Part shown: piece after piece, positions 61,605 to 63,471 of the stretch | Layout of the letters: each line of letters opens with the position of its first letter | Position numbering within the stretch: the stretch's first letter is position 1 | Assembly (NCBI GenBank): GCA_902794535.1 | Contig: CADBHQ010000020.1 | Span: 1-64,000, forward strand | Length of the DNA: 64,000 nucleotides | Source: Fibrobacter succinogenes | GTDB lineage: Bacteria; Fibrobacterota; Fibrobacteria; Fibrobacterales; Fibrobacteraceae | Direction: 5' to 3' | Made by a program: the position numbers and the translations under genes | Notes under the pieces: generated by a model | What the model was told of the DNA's origin: nothing | Databases searched by the model: none | What the model saw: only the letters and a program-made list of their open reading frames with translations

Positions 61605-62585
61605 CTAATGTTCGAGGCTTGCCTTGATGGCGAGGACTTCATCCTCAGAAAGGCGTGAGTACTTGACAACTTTTTCGATAGGCTCGCCTTCTGCAAGCAT
61701 GTCGACAGCCGTCTTACGACGTTCTTCGGAACGAGTTTCTTTGCTGCCTTCAGCACGACCCTCAGCGCGACCTTCTTCAAGGCCTTCTGCACGTGCGTGC
61801 TTCTTTTCTACGTAGAGTTCGTATTCACGGTCGCTCATCTTCATAGCCTCGCTAACAAGAAATTCTTCCGTAAATTTACTCAATTCGGCCTTTTTCTGCA
61901 AGAGGGCAAATTGCGACCCCGCCGGAACGGGTACGGGGCGTTCGTTGTTCAGTCCGTCGAACACGCGCAGCCACTGTGCAAATTGGCTGTTGTCGGCCTC
62001 GAAGCCACCTTTCAAGAACTTGGGCACTTCAACCAGAGTGATGGTCTGCTTCTTGTAGAATTCCTCGTTGTCCTGATTTTTGAGACGAATCGTGTGCACG
62101 TAGTTTTTCCATTCTGGGAATCCCACGAACATCTGGAGGCTGATCAGATTCAAGCTCTTCAGATTGTACGGGTGCCCCTTGGCAAGGCTTGCGACCGTGT
62201 GCTTCGAAGCGTAGTACACCAAGCGACTGTTGAAGCTTTCGTCCTCGATGTGCTGAACCTCCAGTACGATACGGTCCGTGCGCTGGTCCTCGGCCACGAT
62301 ATCCGAAAAGGTGCTTTTGGTGATTGCCCCAGGGAGTTCCTTGTTCACGAAGGTAAGGTGCTCAATACAGTTGCTCCCGTAAAGATGAAGCGCCGCGTTG
62401 AAGAAATCTACCGCAATTGATTCGTTTTCGGGGGCTCCGAGGAGTAACTTGATGACGGCGTCGTTGTAGATATAGACGTACTTGTAGCGTTCCCTGTATT
62501 TTTCAATGCATGCGGAAACATCGCCTCCCTGCTTGTGGGTGTCGCTGATTTCCTTGAGCATGCCTGCGTACTGTTCCTTATTCAT
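61605..62585 (-). CDS. Rpn-family PD-(D/E)XK nuclease / putative transposase
   Basis: 326 residues. It fits the PDDEXK_2/Rpn family, which promotes RecA-independent recombination and includes mobile-element-like members. The nuclease core is seen in YIYNDAVIKLLLG, the acidic DIVAEDQRTDRIVLEVQHIED with the expected D and E-x-Q pattern, and SRLVYYASKH. The C-terminus has a repeated EGRAEGRAEG-type hinge and a small helical end (EPIEKVVKYSRLSEDEVLAIK). AAAGG precedes the ATG. No terminal inverted repeats were seen around it, so mobility is not supported here. Confidence 0.85.
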   Translation of the reverse strand: MNKEQYAGMLKEISDTHKQGGDVSACIEKYRERYKYVYIYNDAVIKLLLGAPENESIAVDFFNAALHLYGSNCIEHLTFVNKELPGAITKSTFSDIVAEDQRTDRIVLEVQHIEDESFNSRLVYYASKHTVASLAKGHPYNLKSLNLISLQMFVGFPEWKNYVHTIRLKNQDNEEFYKKQTITLVEVPKFLKGGFEADNSQFAQWLRVFDGLNNERPVPVPAGSQFALLQKKAELSKFTEEFLVSEAMKMSDREYELYVEKKHARAEGLEEGRAEGRAEGSKETRSEERRKTAVDMLAEGEPIEKVVKYSRLSEDEVLAIKASLEH

Positions 62586-62664
62586 AAAGAACCTTTGCTT
62601 TATAGCGGTTTGCTCGCGTACGAAAAAACGTACACGAATGGTGTATAACTGATTGTTGGTTTGT
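62586..62664. promoter_or_regulatory. leader and promoter region of the Rpn gene
   Basis: On the minus strand this stretch holds a hairpin GTACG-TTTTTT-CGTAC and possible -10 boxes (TATAAAG near 62600, TTATACACC near 62645). No single promoter stands out. Confidence 0.3.
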
Positions 62665-62835
62665 TATGGAAGCCGACCGCTAAGCGAGTCGGTATATGTA
62701 TCGCAGCGCATTCCGCATGGGTTTTCCAAGGCCAGGGCTTTCGCCTCCGTCAGAACCGGACCTACGACTGCGAGTAGGAATGTACCCGCCCGTGGATGCG
62801 TACGCCTCGGTCAGCGGGATTAGCTCACATCGGCA
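62665..62835. ncRNA. putative structured RNA or folded element
   Basis: A 170-base stretch, GC-rich compared with its AT-rich flanks, holds several nested pairings. CCGACCGC/GCG-A-GTCGG forms a hairpin at 62673-62692. CGCATTCCGCATGGG (62707-62721) can pair with CCCGTGGATGCG (62789-62800). Inside lie GGC-TTTC-GCC (62736-62745, a GAAA tetraloop if read on the minus strand) and CCTAC/GTAGG (62761-62778). GCCGA and TCGGC could close the whole element. I do not recognise it as tmRNA, RNase P, SRP or 6S RNA. Strand is uncertain. No coding frame explains it. Confidence 0.4.
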
Positions 62836-62876
62836 AGAATATACAAAATTTTAGTAGGGCGTGCAATAGGGCGAAC

Positions 62877-62937: not shown

Positions 62938-63471
62938 ATGAACAGATTGGAAAAACTAGAAATATCGAATGTCATCGGTGATTTTCGTGCGGCCCTTGAA
63001 ACCTTGGATCGTTACGACCACCAGCAACTGGAATTCCCGAAGACCGGCGTAGACTATAGCGAAACGAGTGGCCCCATCACCTATGAGTTGGCGATGGAAG
63101 CGATTTCTGTGCTCAGGGAAAAATTCCGCGACAGCGGAATCTTCGGTGCCGAAAAGGATGCTTCTTTCAAGAGTTCACTCGGACAAATTTACCAGACCTT
63201 CGACGGCAAGGAACTTTATCCGACCGTGCAGATGAAGGCGGCAACACTCCTGTATCTGCTTGTTAAGAACCATTCTTTTGTTGACGGCAATAAGCGCATT
63301 GCTGCGTTCATTTTCTTGTGGTACATGTCGCGCAACGATATCCTTTATCGTGTGGACGGCTCCAAAATCGTAAGCGATGGTGCCCTGGTCGCACTCACGC
63401 TGCTTATTGCCGAAAGCAAACCCGAAGAACGCGAATCCATGACCAAGCTCGTGGTGAACTTGATTATGTAG
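62938..63471 (+). CDS. Fic/Doc-domain protein
   Basis: 177 residues with the Fic core motif HSFVDGNKRIAAF, which carries the catalytic His and the nucleotide-binding Asn/Lys/Arg. It resembles the C-terminal half of RhuM-type virulence proteins (DFRAALETLDRYDHQQLEF, IYQTFDGKELYPTVQMKAATLLYLLVKNH by parts) but lacks their DNA-binding N-terminal half. The ATG has AAAGGAG upstream and its own -10 box, so the short form is a real gene rather than a broken one. Fic enzymes add AMP or other groups to target proteins. The neighbour ten bases downstream is a FISUMP protein, not a recognised antitoxin. Confidence 0.85.
   Translation: MNRLEKLEISNVIGDFRAALETLDRYDHQQLEFPKTGVDYSETSGPITYELAMEAISVLREKFRDSGIFGAEKDASFKSSLGQIYQTFDGKELYPTVQMKAATLLYLLVKNHSFVDGNKRIAAFIFLWYMSRNDILYRVDGSKIVSDGALVALTLLIAESKPEERESMTKLVVNLIM

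Follow-up and report, generated by a model that had tools for sequence, protein, structure and literature searches.

A structured RNA upstream of Rpn and other defence-type genes in Fibrobacter that may act as a common switch controlling bacterial defences

What is the conserved block of DNA that lies beside an Rpn nuclease gene in Fibrobacter succinogenes, and is it part of that gene, a gene in its own right or the trace of something mobile? The block was met in a window of 64,000 nucleotides (contig CADBHQ010000020.1 of assembly GCA_902794535.1, positions 1 to 64,000), where the neighbouring genes encode Fibrobacter succinogenes major domains as judged by profile matches. The first-pass annotation, made from this one sequence, had described nested stems within some 170 bases that no protein frame could explain, and had left three options for them, namely the leader RNA of the Rpn gene, a separate small RNA or the folded end of a mobile element.

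The block is a conserved repeat of 187 bp (62664..62850, minus strand) that takes in a -10 region and what we read as a structured leader RNA. When the genome was searched at the DNA level, a second copy turned up 10.2 kb away (C20:72885-73071), 96% identical over the 187 bp, with the flanks of the two copies being unrelated. The repeat is present in 16 of 111 genomes of the family, where full-length copies are 82-100% identical; in a family-wide search the core CGTGGATGCNTACGCCTC (plus strand) was matched exactly in the elements, with nearly all remaining matches carrying two mismatches. All 14 named matches of the element core in GTDB contigs belong to Fibrobacter or Fibrobacterales. In two cases (G056:C9:1 and G056:C16:30597) the end of a contig falls within the RNA element, thus the repeat probably breaks assemblies, and draft genomes hold more copies than are counted in them. 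Between the two Rpn units of the window's own genome lie two Fic/DOC-like paralogues some 4.6 kb apart (window 62938-63471 and L003:5066-5665), the first of which is followed by a FISUMP protein.

Are the stems real? They can certainly form, as both the GGC-GAAA-GCC hairpin of the minus strand and the long-range helix of ~70 nt that had been described were located, but folding energy lends them no weight. Single-sequence folding gives -58 kcal/mol on either strand and the MFE z-scores are 0.10 (plus) and 0.01 (minus) against 200 dinucleotide shuffles, so that the ability of stems to form is no evidence by itself. The structure is borne out by covariation among 20 full-length copies, where 98.5% of cells are paired on the minus strand and changes on both sides are found in 7 pairs (20 cells). 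The covariation score of 0.153 compares with a shuffle mean of 0.100 and was reached by none of 500 shuffles, and it falls to 0.024-0.083 when the pairs are slid by 1-3 columns. Many pairs of the Rpn-type copies are invariant and thus uninformative on covariation either way; furthermore, kinship between sequences inflates such counts, which is what the slide controls guard against. A lack of homologues with compensatory changes would have refuted the first-pass proposal; such changes exist, and chance hairpins can be excluded despite z-scores near zero.

The strand can also be settled. The minus-strand helices contain 39 G-U cells and only 4 A-C cells, which places the RNA on the minus strand because the 39 would become mismatches if read on the plus strand, and the RNAalifold consensus of the 20 copies is -36.9 kcal/mol on the minus strand versus -24.2 on the plus; a plus-strand RNA is ruled out by this asymmetry and by its weaker consensus fold. 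The element is thus confirmed as a genuine structured minus-strand RNA, established by comparison and not by folding energy. A protein-coding core (a VDAYASV-like frame) was rejected because the distance from the plus-strand ATG to the core is 93, 94, 102 or 103 nt depending on the copy, with the reading frame lost between copies, which agrees with the absence of a protein frame noted before. A resemblance to group II introns, seen by eye, was dropped as unsupported.

Three parts make up the fold, all on the minus strand. The P1/P1b hairpin (62785..62818), CCCGCU...GGCGGG with a GUAN tip and the near-invariant loop GACNGAGGCGUANGCAUCCACG, shows compensatory C-G to U-A changes in P1, and its core 18-mer has no mismatches in the elements found by the family-wide search. 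The long-range helix P2 (62701..62773), in which 62773-62758 pair with 62714-62701 across ~70 nt, has 13 pairs with 100% of cells paired, a G-C to A-U double change and many minus-strand G-U pairs; it encloses the GGC-GAAA-GCC hairpin (62745-62736), whose GAAA loop is not conserved among relatives, and a small hairpin (62728-62718). Finally the P4 hairpin CCGAC...GUCGG (62673..62692) is variable and covarying, with 93% of cells paired and changes on both sides in 3 of its 5 pairs.

How does this RNA relate to the neighbouring gene? The gene (61605..62585, minus strand, ATG at 62585) encodes an Rpn family PD-(D/E)XK nuclease (PF12784, Pfam 8.5e-30; TIGR01784, NCBIfam 3e-24), the protein matching the Rpn (PDDEXK_2/TIGR01784) family profiles above cut-off. 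Each of the 20 full-length copies is followed directly, and in the same orientation, by an Rpn (PDDEXK_2) gene, one of these Rpn genes being split. Ahead of the RNA on the same strand stand a -35 box TTGCAC (62861..62866; GTGCAA on the plus strand in most copies) and, after a spacing of 17 nt, a -10 box TATATT (62838..62843) whose TATA element is conserved in the copies, from which a transcription start near 62831 is inferred. This sense position, together with the promoter, marks the RNA as the Rpn leader, and of the three options it is the one that fits best, with transcription itself being inferred. Within the interval between RNA and ATG a putative expression platform (62616..62645, minus strand) reads UACAC-CAUUC-GUGUA-CG-UUUUUU, which is terminator-like and is conserved in Rpn1-type leaders with wobble-preserving changes; in the window it overlaps the alternative hairpin GUGUACG-UUUUUU-CGUACGC. 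Rpn1-type leaders have in common the arrangement UACAC-loop-GUGUACG-U(5-6)-CGUACAC, from which either a terminator-like or a competing hairpin is predicted to be possible; after it comes a further hairpin that adjoins the Shine-Dalgarno sequence.

One leader type stands above two very different Rpn subfamilies. The own-genome pair has leaders that are 96% identical above Rpn proteins that are only 25% identical, and genomes G087 and G035 have leaders that are 98% identical above the two subfamilies. The leader was found at 5 of 30 Rpn loci sampled and at 2 of about 7 Rpn genes in the window's own genome, so Rpn does not require it. Rpn proteins have been reported as toxin-antitoxin systems against phage that have intragenic antitoxins (PMC10327210), a role that makes tight control of the gene plausible.

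The RNA is not confined to Rpn genes. A covariance model built from the 20 Rpn-type copies found divergent members in six genomes (G046, G049, G050, G051, G053 and G098), the downstream genes of which are BrnT/BrnA-like, HigB/HigA-like, an RNA ligase with ORF6N, a Schlafen AlbA_2 with a cytosine methylase, and RhuM; the BrnT/BrnA and HigB labels were given by eye, with no Pfam match behind them. A second model from nine divergent members, in which 16 of 33 pairs are double-changed, matches 70 of 168 genomes of the Fibrobacterota phylum, rumen and gut MAGs among them, with about 1-6 copies in each and E-values down to 1e-41. The class as a whole was found more than 130 times in Fibrobacter and related genera, nearly always a short way ahead of interchangeable genes of anti-phage or toxin-like kind. 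The search was confined to genomes of that phylum, which are mostly MAGs; the E-values are rough and ORFs were called by simple rules. Among 31 diverse members 93.9% of cells are paired and compensatory double changes occur in 35 of 54 pairs, the covariation score of 0.317 exceeds the 0.148 of shuffles (none of 500 reaching it) and drops to at most 0.088 when the pairs are slid, and G-U cells again outnumber A-C cells (194:30).

Is the short Rpn-type form truly a member of this class? The invariant core of P1 is common to G046, G098 and the Rpn-type form, and the Rpn-type form and the main class are also alike in promoter spacing, long-range helix and position. Homology is thus likely, mainly through P1 and the common architecture, though it is unproven over the whole length; a MAFFT alignment of Rpn-type and divergent members (A3) was left out as its 3' half was misaligned. 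The Rpn leader would then form a single branch of a wider class of RNAs common to many defence-type genes. No family in Rfam 15 lies at or near its gathering score for either the window element or the wider class, so a known RNA identity was rejected, and the class appears to be both unregistered and undescribed, as far as the open-licence papers searched can tell. In the main class CAUCAAC-CUUCUU-GUUGAUG (alignment A6, columns 66-86) can fold into a local hairpin in competition with the outer part of the long-range helix (UCUUGU/GCAAGA), which may amount to a switch within the RNA. At two loci the RNA is interrupted by a segment common to both, about GTCAAAGCCCTTGATATTAATCAAGGGCGGATGCGAGAGTGAGGC in L251 (G043:C18:30800-31004) and the 3' part of it in L250 (G035:C71:103094-103247); a short palindromic repeat may have inserted itself into the RNA gene here.

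The non-Rpn copies allow the arrangement to be examined on a larger scale. A near-consensus promoter, TTGA[CA]-N16-18-TATNNT, with its end at a fixed 14-16 nt from the start of the RNA, is found in 67 of 112 copies against a shuffled mean of 0.32, although this is a sequence match only and no transcript data stand behind it. Of the 112 copies, 86 have a YhcG-, AlbA- or ORF6N-type gene downstream on their own strand, whereas in 1 such a gene is on the other strand. Among the 102 downstream proteins that were profiled, 29 match DUF1016_N (26 match YhcG_C), 25 SLFN_AlbA_2 and 18 ORF6N, with HipA, HsdR, cytosine methylase, RhuM and antitoxins among the remainder; as this count took same-strand ORFs only it is no test of orientation. 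About 30 of the 102 match the PADLOC candidate PDC-S02, and the RNA was found at 6 of about 14 YhcG genes sampled. In 11 copies a small ORF of 57 aa (MFDEIFGKF...RCPKCGAKLRYPRG), which is conserved and ends in a zinc-ribbon-like stretch, is found between the RNA and the cargo, 94-137 nt after the RNA in G000:C2 (L204), G094:C5 (L197) and nine other copies, and it precedes AlbA_2 and ORF6N cargo alike.

It is at this point that the separate small RNA has to be considered, that is an independent, terminated RNA, trans-acting or protein-binding, that travels with defence genes without being their leader. In its favour are the strong promoter of the RNA, inferred from sequence, and the terminator-like hairpins that are found within 140 nt after the RNA in 39 of 109 copies, compared with 7.9 expected by shuffling and 13 in an upstream control segment; that no more than about one copy in three has them tells against an attenuating leader. 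For some cargo, namely BrnT (G046) and the HigB-like gene (G049/G050), a separate promoter also seems to lie between the RNA and the gene, as read by eye. A pure cis-leader would not need this and it counts against one, which makes the small RNA the main rival. The leaders within one genome are moreover more alike than their cargo, as expected if they shared a partner in trans. Set against this are the constant, co-oriented location just upstream of an ORF and the lack of space in several copies: only ~15-30 nt separate the end of the last hairpin from the following Shine-Dalgarno sequence in G000:C2 and G094:C5, a tight fit for a further promoter. The small RNA is not excluded, and we hold it to be a real possibility, albeit an unlikely one.

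The cargo below the leader can be exchanged. Two genomes of the same species differ in this respect, G094 and G000:C2 being 96% identical through the upstream flank, the RNA and the 57-aa ORF yet having AlbA_2 in the one and ORF6N in the other. With leaders alike above swapped cargo, it is the RNA that stays constant and the defence gene that is exchanged. A further reading is that of a selfish cassette, in which the RNA or its folded end serves mobility or recombination and the defence genes are passengers. A 1.3-kb unit of Rpn and RNA (own genome, 71766-73077) is cleanly missing at the corresponding site in both G056 and G019, a second empty site is seen where the C15 unit is absent from G061, and tandem arrays of RNA and cargo exist; at the locus L112 (G049:C2:184000-193000) a block of RNA, ORF6N and antitoxin/HipA is tandemly duplicated, with an extra RNA ligase in one copy. 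Multi-copy RNAs beside nuclease-type genes have also been placed in a category, MRSC, of suspected selfish elements (PMC11109978), which the present RNA resembles in having several copies per genome that adjoin nuclease-type genes; it differs from them in its fixed place upstream of an ORF and its promoter, with no transposase or integrase seen travelling along. Nor was a recombinase or reverse transcriptase seen with the RNA, and neither a target duplication nor fixed ends were found at the junctions of 71766-73077, with only two sites examined. The exchange point in the one allelic pair lies downstream of the RNA, and covariation so rich in G-U indicates selection on RNA and not on DNA hairpins. 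Viral contigs searched with two core patterns gave no match, phage records gave none and plasmids a single chance-level one of 43 nt, and a phage or plasmid origin of the element was dropped. The mobile element is likewise not excluded; it is less likely given the absence of a visible linked recombinase and an exchange point outside the RNA, and we regard it as improbable.

Comparison with known systems also speaks to what the RNA may be. It has in common with riboswitch and attenuator leaders its own promoter, a folded 5' leader domain, terminator-like or start-site-proximal hairpins and the orientation of the gene, but it precedes many unrelated defence or toxin-type genes and not one pathway, and has no Rfam 15 match. 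Orphan leader motifs, for example the DUF3800 motifs, are structured RNAs repeatedly found upstream of an accessory gene with a possible role in defence; the Fibrobacter RNA differs in standing ahead of many gene families, in exchanging its cargo and in being multi-copy within a genome. The omega-RNA of IscB (HEARO) is likewise a structured RNA that immediately precedes a nuclease gene and has the same sense. In contrast to it the Fibrobacter RNA has no hypervariable guide by the scaffold, as its 5' tail is conserved within lineages and the variable apical stem P3b keeps its pairing by covariation (helix 8), and the cargo is not IscB.

A further likeness is to ToxIN, whose operon runs from promoter through structured RNA and terminator-like hairpin to toxic gene (PMC3475682), and it raises the idea that the RNA is itself an antitoxin of the type III kind. 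The order of parts is indeed that of ToxIN, with a structured RNA and a terminator-like hairpin before a toxic gene. The tandem direct repeats that characterise type III antitoxins were sought in the element and not found, however, and the cargo is unrelated between copies and drawn from so many families that a single RNA could not specifically inhibit them all. Furthermore Rpn is a PD-(D/E)XK (DNase-type) protein with a protein antitoxin already reported (PMC10327210), and an RNA antitoxin is hard to credit here.

We consider it reasonably probable that the RNA is a cis-acting leader of the attenuator type that places exchangeable defence modules under common control. The structure and strand of the RNA, its position and orientation relative to the cargo, the promoters and the exchange of cargo all come from sequence analysis, and what is expected of a cis-leader, namely covariation on the coding strand, a co-oriented upstream position and an adjacent upstream promoter, is met. 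Attenuation, or gating, is inferred. For the window a sigma70-type promoter would drive transcription of the minus strand from 62831 to ~62590 as the 5' leader of the Rpn mRNA, which would fold into the P1 hairpin with its invariant loop, the multihelix domain closed by P2 and the P4 hairpin, and would be followed by the region of terminator-like and start-site-proximal hairpins and then the Rpn start codon. The most likely mechanism is that the folded domain, on binding an unknown ligand or protein, would determine whether transcription or translation proceeds into the toxic cargo. The excess of terminator-like hairpins in the class and the overlapping alternative hairpins before Rpn are in keeping with such a platform; switching has not been shown.

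More speculative is the idea that a single class of RNA switch senses a single signal, such as a nucleotide or protein made on infection, and de-represses whatever defence module is plugged in below it, forming a plug-and-play RNA-controlled regulon. A common inducing signal, be it infection or stress, is again an inference, and we put this forward tentatively, as an idea that could well be wrong. If true, dozens of unrelated anti-phage and toxin genes within one genus would be under one RNA switch. Nucleases such as Rpn and those of the YhcG type are toxic or probably so, and a leader common to such genes would give a direct handle on how they are silenced until they are needed. Furthermore a near-identical leader above swapped cargo would mark new defence genes, as these would be whatever lies below the RNA.
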